Source: Acidipila sp. (GTDB lineage: Bacteria > Acidobacteriota > Terriglobia > Acidiferrales > UBA7541). Taken from it: a DNA stretch of 45,631 nt. The stretch covers positions 1-45,631 of the forward strand of contig JAAFGT010000026.1 in assembly GCA_010365215.1 (NCBI GenBank), in the 5' to 3' direction. The number at the start of each line of letters is the position of its first letter. Positions within the stretch are counted from its first letter, which is position 1. Below the pieces are notes generated by a model that worked only from the letters and a program-made list of their open reading frames with translations, was not told the origin of the DNA and did not search any database. Made by a program: the position numbers and the translations under genes. Shown here in pieces: positions 388-3,747 of the stretch.

Positions 388-414
388 GGAACTTTTCTCT
401 GCCACCTCGCGTAA
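388..414 (+). promoter_or_regulatory. Candidate ECF-sigma-type promoter
   Basis: GGAAC at 388-392, a 17-nt spacer beginning with TTTT, then CGTAA at 410-414. This GGAAC/CGTA arrangement and spacing is the usual layout of extracytoplasmic-function sigma promoters. It would start transcription about 25-30 nt before the ATG at 449, which has a strong ribosome-binding site GAGGAGG at 434-440. The match was found by eye and is a prediction. Confidence 0.4.
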
Positions 415-448
415 CGAATAGTACAAGCGAGGCGAGGAGGCCTCTCCC

Positions 449-1072
449 ATGACCACCGGAAAAACAAAAACCGCGGGTGCGCTGGCCGCAATTGCCGCAC
501 TGACCTTTATCGGCGTTTCGGCCATTACGTTGGCGGCACAAAACGACCCCAACGCCGCGCCGCAGGGCGCTAGCGCAACCGCCGACCGTTGGCTGCACGT
601 CTCGGTGATTAACCGCGACCCCAAAGGCGACCGCGTACGCGTCAATCTGCCGATCTCCGTCGCTGAAGGAGTCCTGAGCTCGGTTAAACATGATCGCCTC
701 GACCACGGCGTCATCAAAGTGGACCAGCTCAAGATGGACGAAGTGGATTTTCGCAAGCTGTACGCTAGTCTAAAAAGCGCTAAAGACGGCGAGTACGTAA
801 CCGTCGAAAGCGCTTCCTGCAACGTGCGCGTGGCAAAAGATAACGGTTTCTTCATCGTGCGCGCCAACGATAAGAGCAAGAAGGAGTCCAATATCTATGT
901 GCGCATGCCTTTCGCCGTCGTCGACGCGCTCTTCTCCGGCAAGCCGGACGAACTCAATGTTCTCGCGGCGCTGCGCGTTCTCTCCAGTCACGGCGACTCC
1001 GAGCTGGTCTCGGTGAAAGACTCGGAAAACACCGTGCGCGTCTGGGTGGACTCGAAAAACAGCACGGACTAA
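449..1072 (+). CDS. Secreted or membrane-anchored repeat protein of unknown function
   Basis: 207 residues; I do not recognise a named family. The hydrophobic segment at about residues 9-31 reads as an uncleaved anchor or signal peptide. Two related units follow. Unit A (about 48-139) runs strand - P - helix - V-rich strands; unit B (about 148-202) is a shorter copy. Both show a (V/Y)(R/V)xxP start, a helix ending in LxSxxD, then ExVxV and VRVxxD strands. The next gene, 143 nt downstream on the same strand, contains the same unit, so the two probably form an operon of paralogous domains. The start is supported by GAGGAGG eight bases upstream. A possible ECF promoter lies just before it. Confidence 0.8.
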   Translation: MTTGKTKTAGALAAIAALTFIGVSAITLAAQNDPNAAPQGASATADRWLHVSVINRDPKGDRVRVNLPISVAEGVLSSVKHDRLDHGVIKVDQLKMDEVDFRKLYASLKSAKDGEYVTVESASCNVRVAKDNGFFIVRANDKSKKESNIYVRMPFAVVDALFSGKPDELNVLAALRVLSSHGDSELVSVKDSENTVRVWVDSKNSTD

Positions 1073-1215
1073 CTCTGGTCAGCCGTGCGGCAGATCACAG
1101 AAATTACGCGCGGCGAGTTTTGTAGGGGCACGGCATGCCGTGCCCGCTTAGCGGCAGCGACGCTGAGAGTTTGTGGGAGTTTTTAACGGGGACTGACCGG
1201 GAGGCCAGGAAAGCC

Positions 1216-1641
1216 ATGATCATTGCGAAGATACTTCTAGGAACGGCTGTGCTGGGCGGCGCGGTAGCCATGCAGGATGGCATCGTCACCGTCAATGTCC
1301 GGGAAAAACATCCCGGCGGCCATCACATCTGGGTCGCGGCCCCGGGCGTACTGGTTCCGCTGGGATTAAAGTTCGCGCCCAGGCATGAATTGGAAGAACA
1401 GATGCGCTGTTCGCGCGAGTGGTTGCCGGTAGTGCACGCCGCGCTTCGCGAACTGCAAAAATCGCCCGACGCAATCTTCGTGGAAGTGCAGACAGCCAGG
1501 GAGCACGTCCTGGTGCAGAAGTCCTGGGGCCGCATCCAAGTGGACGTAGACACAGACGACGCGGAAGTTCACGTGGCCGTCCCGCTCCGCACCGCGCAGC
1601 ACGCGCTCGCCGAGCTCGAGGAGCTGCAGCCCGCATCCTGA
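1216..1641 (+). CDS. Small secreted paralogue of the upstream repeat protein
   Basis: 141 residues from the ATG chosen because AGGAAAG precedes it and the protein then begins with a hydrophobic segment (MIIAKILLGTAVLGGAVA). The same frame could start earlier at 1135, but that would bury the signal segment behind a polar stretch. Residues about 24-112 align by eye with unit A of the neighbour: VNVREKHPGGHHIWVAAP against VSVINRDPKGDRVRVNLP. A second unit begins at about 116 (EVHVAVPLRTAQHALAEL) and is cut off by the stop. Function is unknown; a cell-envelope or regulatory role is only a guess. It converges with the next gene at a gap of 18 nt. Confidence 0.72.
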   Translation: MIIAKILLGTAVLGGAVAMQDGIVTVNVREKHPGGHHIWVAAPGVLVPLGLKFAPRHELEEQMRCSREWLPVVHAALRELQKSPDAIFVEVQTAREHVLVQKSWGRIQVDVDTDDAEVHVAVPLRTAQHALAELEELQPAS

Positions 1642-1659: not shown

Positions 1660-2379
1660 CTAAATGTCCGGGCCCGTCTGGGTCACCATTCTCTGCGGCT
1701 CAAACTCCGTTTGAATATAAAGAGTGCTGGGCTTGCACACGAATTCCACCGACTTCTCCTCCGGCGCCACCAGCGGCTCACCAGTCGCCAGATTCTTGGG
1801 GAAATGAAAGAGCACTGCGGTGATGGTCTTGCCGTCCGGCCCGCGTTGGAACTCGACGTCGGTTGGCGGAACTTTTTGCTTGTTCTTCTTCGCCCGCAGA
1901 TAGGTCACACCCTCAAGCGCCGCCGCGTCCGCGTTTTCGAAGGCTAGTAAATTTCGGCCTAGAATGGCTACTTCATAATCCGGGATTGCACCGGTGAGGC
2001 TTTTCTCAGCGTCAGCTTCGGTCAATGCACCCCGCCGTACCGCTGCGCGCACCGCCGCGCGCCGGATGGTCATCGCTGACGCCCACTGAACGGTGAAATC
2101 CATCCCACCGCCGCGCTGATTCGGCACGTTCGCCTCCGCGCCGGGGGAACCGCTTGTGCCTTTGCCTGGCCCCCCCGTGTTCAACGACGAGTTGGCTTGG
2201 TTCGATGCTGTATCAAATGGGATCTTCACTTTCCTGGCCCACGGGGAATCGGTCATAATTTGACGCAGATCCACATCATCCCACTGCTTATCCGTCTTTT
2301 GCTTCCAGGGATCGCCAGCCCGTGCGCCAATCGCGAAACAGAACAGACCAGCCAGAGCAAAAACTAATTTACGTTTCAT
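1660..2379 (-). CDS. Secreted protein with SPWAR motif (acidobacterial GWxTD-like)
   Basis: 239 residues. I chose the ATG at 2379 because GGGAGG lies six bases upstream and the protein then begins with a clean signal peptide (MKRKLVFALAGLFCFAIGARA). The frame is open further upstream to an ATG at 2481 that would overlap the permease stop (ATGA), but that start adds 34 polar residues before the signal peptide. After the signal comes a DVDLRQIMTDSPWAR motif like the TDSPWA sequence seen in secreted acidobacterial proteins often labelled GWxTD. Residues about 60-95 are a Gly/Ser/Asn-rich linker. The C-terminal half is a mixed alpha/beta domain with no motif I can name. It lies directly downstream of the permease on the same strand. 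Confidence 0.75.
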   Translation of the reverse strand: MKRKLVFALAGLFCFAIGARAGDPWKQKTDKQWDDVDLRQIMTDSPWARKVKIPFDTASNQANSSLNTGGPGKGTSGSPGAEANVPNQRGGGMDFTVQWASAMTIRRAAVRAAVRRGALTEADAEKSLTGAIPDYEVAILGRNLLAFENADAAALEGVTYLRAKKNKQKVPPTDVEFQRGPDGKTITAVLFHFPKNLATGEPLVAPEEKSVEFVCKPSTLYIQTEFEPQRMVTQTGPDI

Positions 2380-2477
2380 AACCATCCTCCCGCCAATCCT
2401 CCCACCGCTTCCCGATCGCCGTTTTTTCTCAAGCTTGCCGCGTCGCCCTGCTCGAATCTCTGCGTTTAAGACTTCGC

Positions 2478-3566
2478 TCATTCAAAGGCCAGCGCCTCTA
2501 CCGGGTCGCTGCCGGAAGCGCGCACCGCTGGGAACACAGCCCCCAGCAACGCCCCGAGGAATGCCAGCGCAACACTTCTCAGCACCCATGCCCTGGTAAT
2601 TAGAATCATCAGTCCTGGCGAATACGATTTGAGCGCCCGGCAGGCCAGGAACGTCGCCGCCAGACCAATGATCACTCCCAGCGCCGACATCAGCGCCGTT
2701 TCGCTCAGAAACAGCCGCGCCACTTCCATTCTGGAAACGCCCAACGCTTTGAGGATTCCGATCTCCCGCGTGCGCTCCAGCACCATGGTGTGCATGGTCA
2801 GCAACACCACCAGGAAACTGATGGAGACGCCAATGATCACCATCACATTCAGGAACGGCTTCATTCCCGGCAGGTTGGAGGAATTCATCAGCGTCAGATA
2901 ATCCTGCATGGACCGCACCAGATGGCCGGGAAGTTTTCGCACGATGGCTTGTCGCGTGGCTTCGGTATCCCCTGTGCTTCGCACGTAGAACAGCGTCACG
3001 CGCTTATCGGCCGCGGCGATCTCCTGCGCCGTCGCCAGGGGAATAAACGAGCGCGCCCCTTTTCCGTGCGCTACTACCCCGCAGACCGTGAAGTCTCGGT
3101 TGAAAATGCTGAAGTGATCGCCAACGCGCAAATGGCGCTTTTCCGCTTGAATATCATCCAGAATGACTTCATCCGGTCGCTGGAAAGCCCGCCCGTCGCG
3201 AAAGACGAATCCCTGGCTTAGCGCACTGAAGCTCTGAAATTCAATTCCGTAAACGATTTCCAGGTTGCGCGCGTTGGCGATCACCAGCACCGGCGCCACC
3301 TGGTCCACGCCCGGCACCGCAGCGATTGTCTCTGCCAGGGATTGTTGCAGGACGGCGTTTGAAAACTGAAAGAAGATCGAGGCGTTCGGCGGCTGCACCA
3401 GAATGTCCGCGCCCACGCCCTCGACGCGTTTGCCCCAGTCGTTCACTGCGCCCAGCGTCATTCCCACGATCAGCAGGACGAAAGTAACCTGCAAAGCCAC
3501 GGCCACCACGCTCAGCGCCGTGCGTAGCGGGCGCGCGCGCAGATTGCTCCACAGCAACTGGGTCAT
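2478..3566 (-). CDS. FtsX/MacB-type ABC transporter permease without a visible ATPase partner
   Basis: About 362 residues from the ATG at 3566 (MTQLLWSNLRARPLRTALS). A GTG at 3587 has a better Shine-Dalgarno (GGGGGA), and an ATG at 3626 is also possible, so the start is uncertain. The layout is that of the MacB/FtsX family: one N-terminal membrane helix (about 19-42), a periplasmic MacB_PCD-like domain (about 43-250), then three C-terminal helices containing the conserved RTREIGILKALG and ending SDPVEALAFE. Such permeases work with an ATP-binding subunit, often in lipoprotein or peptide handling. No ATPase gene is adjacent: upstream is a divergent SDR gene, downstream the secreted SPWAR protein, which may be a partner. 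Confidence 0.9.
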   Translation of the reverse strand: MTQLLWSNLRARPLRTALSVVAVALQVTFVLLIVGMTLGAVNDWGKRVEGVGADILVQPPNASIFFQFSNAVLQQSLAETIAAVPGVDQVAPVLVIANARNLEIVYGIEFQSFSALSQGFVFRDGRAFQRPDEVILDDIQAEKRHLRVGDHFSIFNRDFTVCGVVAHGKGARSFIPLATAQEIAAADKRVTLFYVRSTGDTEATRQAIVRKLPGHLVRSMQDYLTLMNSSNLPGMKPFLNVMVIIGVSISFLVVLLTMHTMVLERTREIGILKALGVSRMEVARLFLSETALMSALGVIIGLAATFLACRALKSYSPGLMILITRAWVLRSVALAFLGALLGAVFPAVRASGSDPVEALAFE

Positions 3567-3747
3567 CGAGAAGCCGTTCCACGCCACAAATCCCCCACTC
3601 AGAACCCGATCTACGCACTTTAGCATTGCCCTTACCAGTGGTCAAAGCGCCTCGGCGGAGCACGCTCCGCTAACAACCCTAGCCATGCTAGATTTGTGCG
3701 CACCACCGTTCGTTCCCGAGAGAGTGCGCCAGGGAGAGCCCGTGGCC

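Follow-up and report, generated by a model that had tools for sequence, protein, structure and literature searches.

What could two neighbouring genes for small proteins be doing behind an apparent ECF-type promoter in Acidipila sp., when neither protein falls into a named family? The window, by which we mean the whole 45,631-nucleotide stretch of DNA that was analysed, is one complete contig (C69) from a draft genome of 4.1 Mb, and this genome carries a single copy of each gene. The first, P1 (positions 449–1072, forward strand), recognised by its homologues and profile matches, encodes a predicted exported protein of 207 residues with two full copies of one unit, the second, P2 (1216–1641, forward strand), recognised by its homologues and its adjacency to P1, encodes a probably membrane-anchored protein of 141 residues with one unit and a half. 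A first-pass annotation, made from the sequence alone, had described the two as adjacent secreted proteins built from the same unit and had suggested envelope-stress or ECF control; its reading frames and coordinates proved correct when checked against the sequence, its overall observation is confirmed by the present analysis and its interpretation is supported. We propose, at a probability of roughly two in three with the mechanism set out below included, that P1 and P2 form a two-gene operon, which would be an extracytoplasmic part of an autoregulated ECF regulon that also has parts of the PSP, Lia and Yvl type.

A conserved gene pair sharing one unit

Homologues of P1 occur in 52 of 101 genomes (the host genome counted) and homologues of P2 in 50 of them. 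The adjacency seen in the window holds among these relatives: of the 50 genomes that have both genes, 49 carry them on the same contig and strand with P2 at most ~0.7 kb downstream, the sole exception being G023, where they are on separate contigs, and G030 and G084 carry P1 without P2. P2 was likewise found behind P1 in 37 of 38 fetched regions, mostly from the same genomes as the 101-genome survey, and the pair was present in all four Acidobacteriota MAGs found by protein pattern, one of which is labelled Candidatus Acidoferrales. A P1 profile search across the phylum matched 50 of 199 genomes, 37 of these at an E-value of 1e-18 or better, and the 13 weaker ones hold more distant cousins; the distribution of P1 is patchy, none of the listed genomes of family f11 having it. 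Among the papers listed in literature searches, no title or opening of an abstract dealt with the pair or with its regulon, which is no proof that the pair is undescribed.

The two units of P1 cover residues 46–133 (584–847) and 133–207 (845–1069), the single full unit of P2 covers residues 22–104 (1279–1527) and is followed by a half unit of strand, strand, proline and helix at residues 104–138 (1525–1629), all on the forward strand. Profiles of 29 rows each (with L030 dropped from alignment A1 and L055 from A2) aligned P1 to P2 over 113 columns, at an HHalign E-value of 1.7e-13 and a probability of 98, in agreement with the claim that the proteins share one unit. Profile comparisons of single units gave E = 6.9e-12 between the two units of P1, E = 2.7e-9 between P1 unit 1 and P2 unit 1, and E = 5.2e-9 between P1 unit 2 and P2 unit 1. 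Judged by these comparisons, the units of P1 and P2 are homologous and the repeat is beyond chance. The half unit of P2 is kept across the 29-row alignment, and when compared alone it gave weak profile probabilities of 80, 44 and 24 against P1 unit 1, P1 unit 2 and P2 unit 1.

In the predicted structure of P1 (mean pLDDT 68.9, from a five-sequence alignment, with residues 1–44 below 50) the order strand-strand-helix-(strand)-helix-strand-strand occurs twice. The copy that had been described as full is so, the second, which had been described as shortened, appears instead as a full unit with a shorter middle, made of strands at residues 134–141 and 148–154, helices at 155–161 and 171–179, and strands at 184–190 and 194–201. 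For P2, the description as one unit and the start of a second stands, and the element order of its low-confidence model (mean pLDDT 51.6, too weak for superposition) agrees with it, one unit being followed by strand-strand-helix.

Both proteins had been called secreted, which fits P1 and does not fit P2 so well. In P1, a hydrophobic N-terminal core with an AxA-like site is found in 30 of 30 rows, by a permissive pattern and a crude hydropathy test, and marks a predicted signal peptide region at about residues 1–30 (449–538, forward strand); one of the 30 rows has an extra hydrophobic stretch beyond residue 50. The N-terminus of P2 (residues 1–21, 1216–1278, forward strand) is hydrophobic in 30 of 30 rows by the same crude test, but has an AxA-like site in only 24, which argues that P2 is more likely membrane-anchored than secreted; no lipobox was found in the P2 N-termini of these 30 rows.

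The gap between the genes contains, at 1125–1145 (no strand assigned), the palindrome GGGGCACGGCATGCCGTGCCC, which its genome-wide matches identify as a REP-like interspersed repeat outside the system: with up to 2 mismatches it was counted 28 times forward and 26 times reverse in the genome, most sites being counted on both strands, against 0 and 1 for the control. Beyond P2, a convergent gene (1660–2481, reverse strand; scanned as 1660–2370) encodes a protein with no Pfam match, and the gene next to it (2478–3626, reverse strand) resembles, by eye, an FtsX/MacB-type permease; the clusters of both genes recur near other P1–P2 pairs.

Relation to the domain behind SHOCT-like hairpins

That the unit has no named family, as the first-pass annotation had put it, holds for Pfam and NCBIfam, where scans of P1 and P2 gave nothing above chance and where no Pfam model covers the unit domain in the scanned proteins, but it does not hold in the wider sense, as profile comparison relates the unit to what follows the SHOCT-like hairpin (PF22746) in DUF2089-type proteins. 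When 29 P1 rows were compared with Pfam and NCBIfam, 56 families matched weakly, and among the best 25 of these 56 DUF6432 was matched by 10 rows (best E = 0.006) and PF22746 by none. The Toastrack family DUF2807 was matched by 3 of the 29 rows (best E = 1.4e-4), which we take to be partial or accidental. The window's own P1 and P2 matched neither Toastrack (DUF4097/DUF2807) nor PF22746.

The relation is carried by the cousins, small exported single-unit proteins and TPR/HEAT-repeat proteins ending in one unit, which were weak P1-profile matches in other Acidobacteriota. The cousin set comprised 13 rows taken by regular expression from these matches, mixing single-unit with TPR/HEAT-linked copies and including one fragment of 8 residues, and it was compared with Acidobacteriota SHOCT proteins, for which 13 loci were tried, two (L114 and L116) failed the regular expression and one (L112) was taken out by eye, so that 10 rows remained, among which two have identical units. 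The cousins matched the region after the hairpin at an HHalign E-value of 3.5e-10 and a probability of 96.7, against a maximum of 6.3 in 30 column permutations. They also matched P1 unit 1 at E = 1.4e-17, a value that is partly by construction because the P1 profile picked the cousins, whereas their match to the SHOCT-adjacent region is independent. Compared directly with that region, P1 unit 1 reached a probability of 88.6 (maximum 26.8 in 40 column permutations, 0.7 when reversed), P1 unit 2 reached 72.9, P2 unit 1 43.7, the half unit of P2 26.2 and the whole of P2 23; the direct match is thus a modest one and becomes strong only by way of the cousins. Taken together, the cousin and permutation results argue for placing the unit in a domain family also found behind SHOCT-like hairpins.

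PF22746 was matched in 11 of 31 relatives at E = 0.01 (7 over the cut-off) and in 6 of 149 genomes of a phylum sample, and it was not matched in the Acidipila sp. genome itself, which we count against the proposed reading. A plasmid collection searched with a SHOCT protein gave one match, to a Streptomycetaceae megaplasmid. In G067 a DUF2089-type protein (L077 1029–1914, reverse strand) is split into two overlapping genes, the HTH part (PF09862) and then SHOCT plus unit (PF22746), these lie ~5 kb from the P1–P2 pair and a PspC gene lies ~2.4 kb away on the other side. A separate locus in G272 (L283, frame from 187, forward strand) contains a stop-to-stop frame of 372 amino acids with two unit-like stretches and a long Pro/Thr-rich linker between them.

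One promoter before P1, the sigma operon and PspC

The GGAAC-N17-CGTAA element that had been noted upstream of P1 is present (388–414, forward strand), with its -35 GGAAC at 388–392, a spacer of 17 nt and its -10 CGTAA at 410–414, the end of which lies 34 nt before the ATG at 449. It is conserved. Among the 30 best P1 loci (window included, out of 52 genomes), 19 carry GGAAC-N15-18-CGT within 220 nt upstream of P1, against a mean of 0.42 and a maximum of 5 in 500 shuffles, and we reject chance as its origin; none of the 30 carries it within 130 nt upstream of P2. A looser form that also admits GGAAAC and GAAC, a pattern widened after inspection, was found within 250 nt at all 30 P1 loci, against 0.19 expected. 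At 19 more distant P1 loci the strict motif occurs in 8 (0.5 expected), some with odd distance or composition. Covariation of the P1 and sigma promoters was not seen in genus g6, because the P1 promoters there are mostly GGAAAC while the sigma promoter keeps GGAAC.

The same promoter recurs within the Acidipila sp. genome, where the pattern GGAACWTTT-N10-13-CGTW has five sites, against one for the reversed pattern. Four of these precede P1–P2, an ECF operon (C4), a PspC gene and, starting 131 nt before it, a luciferase-like monooxygenase gene; the fifth (C73) lies inside a long coding frame and is counted among the chance matches. The ECF operon site starts 77 nt before the sigma frame and 140 nt ahead of the match to sigma region 2, and the operon runs from the sigma gene through a zf-HC2 anti-sigma gene and two LiaI/LiaF-like membrane proteins to a LiaF-TM/DUF4097 (Toastrack) protein, with Pfam matches to Sigma70_r2/r4, zf-HC2, LiaI-LiaF-like TM1, LiaF-TM and DUF4097. 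Its sigma factor scores above the cut-off of TIGR02937, the general ECF model, and the highest equivalog scores, to models of the SigE, SigM, RpoE and SigW types, stay below theirs. The PspC site starts 96 nt before a tandem PspC gene (PspC match 7.9e-46), the product of which (L142 6177–6716, reverse strand) joins a zinc ribbon to two tandem PspC domains. When the ECF orthologue was searched directly in 18 genomes of our own choice, it was present in all 18 and had the motif in 16 (15 GGAAC, 1 TGAAC). With the same promoter before the sigma gene in Acidipila sp. and in these 16, the C4 sigma factor is predicted to be autoregulated; the two sigma genes without the motif we count against the regulon.

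Over 61 genomes the strict pattern had 211 matches against 96 for the reversed pattern, therefore many single motif sites are chance and any one site without other support may be so. From 18 P1-bearing genomes we took 76 further strict sites, leaving out the 13 strict P1–P2 sites of these genomes and four sites (L249–L252) picked by eye as likely sigma promoters. Open reading frames starting within 400 nt downstream of the 76 sites encode the same ECF sigma factor at 12, PspC at 5 and Toastrack-like proteins at 8, one of these eight (L181) being assigned by BLAST cluster only, and labels given by eye add 7 MacA-like adaptors, 3 FtsX-type permeases and 2 ABC ATPases. The seven adaptors form one BLAST cluster directly behind the motif in several genomes (L195, L200, L201, L215, L227, L228 and L240), which suggests that efflux is part of the ECF regulon. 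Against the regulon we count the 39 of 76 sites at which no downstream gene could be placed in an envelope or transport family, and also three genomes (G003, G018 and G025) in which the sigma promoter is present yet P1 is not. Among these 39, four sites (L184, L209, L220 and L232) precede a small soluble protein of ~90 amino acids with no assigned family, and a gene that is PadR-like by eye occurs at 2.

Proposed role and alternatives

In the mechanism that we propose, the zf-HC2 anti-sigma protein would let go of the sigma factor under membrane or envelope stress, RNA polymerase holoenzyme would initiate at GGAAC-N16-17-CGT promoters, and the targets switched on would be its own sigma operon, the tandem PspC protein and P1–P2. 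P1 would then enter the periplasm, P2 would be anchored in the inner membrane and face the periplasm, and the two would come together on the periplasmic side of the inner membrane. Their shared unit may be an extracytoplasmic version of the domain after the SHOCT-like hairpin in DUF2089-type proteins and may serve at the membrane as a module for binding proteins, in all likelihood through docking of P1 on P2, perhaps via the half unit of P2. As sensor or effector, the pair might buffer or stabilise the damaged membrane, or it might tune the sigma switch by feedback.

It is possible, but on balance improbable, that P1 and P2 are instead signal inputs, as RseB is for RseA: by binding either a membrane ligand or the anti-sigma factor, an exported unit protein would set sigma activity in a negative feedback loop. 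The first-pass annotation had pointed to a neighbouring ECF or anti-sigma gene as something to look for. At orthologous pairs such a gene is exceptional, no ECF gene being found inside the P1–P2 operon and the fetched flanks of 3 of 38 regions having one, none adjoining, whereas beside distant homologues it does occur: in distant Acidobacteriota 8 of 12 unit-gene regions have an ECF gene close by in the same orientation, a count with no background rate behind it (of 16 weak-match regions, L273–L288, 12 were enlarged and L277, L283, L287 and L288 were left out). Seven of the eight (L293–L298 and L303) have the order ECF, anti-sigma-like, unit gene(s), with zf-HC2 found by Pfam in 4 of 4 tested and the other anti-sigma labels given by eye, and this order makes a candidate for a separate signalling system. 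Six of these seven encode a TPR/HEAT protein with a unit at its end, followed by a single-unit exported protein. A place directly behind ECF and zf-HC2 is a usual one for anti-sigma accessory proteins and speaks for the RseB-like role, as do the P1 model's weak structural similarities to RseB (2v42_B, Z 4.1, rmsd 6.1, 106 aligned) and to LolA (2w7q_A, Z 4.8, rmsd 8.0, 113 aligned). However, Z-scores below 5 at an rmsd of 6–8 Angstrom are background, the best VIA Z for the P1 model being 4.9 with PURA in the top row, a Foldseek search of the model against the PDB gave no match at E = 0.001 or better (which is not proof of a new fold), PDB sequence searches with P1 and P2 gave nothing significant, RseB included, and in the lineage of the window P1–P2 is unlinked from the sigma operon. 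P1 does share with RseB, the periplasmic sensor of sigmaE, that it has two parts, is predicted to be exported and is linked with an ECF system, and a tuning of the sigma switch by P1–P2 would follow the logic of RseB, but nothing in the fold comparison rises above background to support this.

A more tentative extension, which we hold to be rather improbable, takes the unit as an undescribed domain family on both sides of the membrane, cytosolic behind SHOCT-like hairpins and exported with ECF/zf-HC2, in which the exported pairs (P1–P2, and the TPR/HEAT-unit with the single-unit protein in distant genomes) would form a stress-sensing complex that monitors the envelope and tunes the anti-sigma factor, the half unit of P2 being completed by a unit of P1.

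We regard it as unlikely that P1–P2 answers to another ECF sigma factor with overlapping specificity. Since GGAAC/CGT is widespread as an ECF consensus, its presence at both P1–P2 and the C4 operon could reflect just that; the genome has 18 Sigma70_r2 matches (17 above the cut-off), and a second sigma gene (C81) carries a weaker GGAAC-N17-CGT without the T run at -303, which we count against the regulon. Yet the loose GGAAC-WT..CGT motif, with its T run, lies within 400 nt of only the C4 ECF gene among those 18 matches, and the motif and the C4-type ECF gene recur across genomes, where PspC and Toastrack genes are targets too. Very improbable is a role of P1 and P2 as periplasmic proteins unconnected with stress, for example carbohydrate related, which stand beside glgB on that account or by accident. 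A gene of the glgB cluster does end 111 nt upstream in the window, and cluster c4 (11 members, one of them GlgB by Pfam) recurs beside other pairs, but the neighbours vary between genomes (glgB, beta-CASP hydrolase, amidohydrolase, aminotransferase, D-serine dehydratase-like, GlnD and others) with no conserved operon partner seen beyond P1–P2, and the promoter stays.

If P1–P2 is an extracytoplasmic part of an autoregulated ECF regulon, as we favour, that regulon has PspC, LiaI/LiaF-TM and Toastrack parts in common with the yvlABCD/LiaIHGFSR and PSP network of B. subtilis (YvlB, YvlC/PspC, LiaF, LiaG/Toastrack), as described in PMC9239133 and PMC11237479. According to PMC9239133, both PspA and LiaH are interaction partners of B. 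subtilis YvlB, LiaG has its DUF4097 part outside the cell, and PspA stands beside band-7 proteins in Acidobacteriota, in a gene set different from the P1–P2 regulon; in PMC11237479, Toastrack and SHOCT-like proteins are predicted to be intracellular, and the main text does not contain 'Acidobacteri'. Like the Yvl, Lia and PSP systems, the P1–P2 regulon has units that appear related to the domain behind a SHOCT-like hairpin; unlike them, its parts in Acidipila sp. are spread over several ECF-driven operons, and its unit proteins are predicted to be exported or anchored and are without a SHOCT-like hairpin or Toastrack domain. In B. subtilis yvl is controlled by sigmaW, and the P1–P2 regulon resembles the sigmaW regulon in being under candidate ECF control. 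The DUF2089/SHOCT-like_DUF2089-C proteins (PF09862, PF22746) have a C-terminal domain that would fall into the same family as the unit of P1–P2, but P1 and P2 differ from them in having no Zn ribbon, HTH or SHOCT-like hairpin and in carrying export or anchor sequences. The C-terminal part of LiaX of enterococci (NF038025) is matched by the Toastrack protein of the Acidipila sp. ECF operon (7.8e-7, far below the cut-off). Unlike LiaX, P1 and P2 do not match NF038025; the N-terminal domain of LiaX is presumably related to their unit.

A gene pair that is present in about half of 101 related genomes, and unnamed in Pfam and NCBIfam, receives a testable function, and an apparently autoregulated ECF sigma factor of Acidobacteriota is tied to the PspC/LiaF/Toastrack toolkit known from Bacillus and Enterococcus. 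The domain defined here would link DUF2089-type regulators with exported proteins, and the promoter motif supplies a list of candidate members of the regulon.
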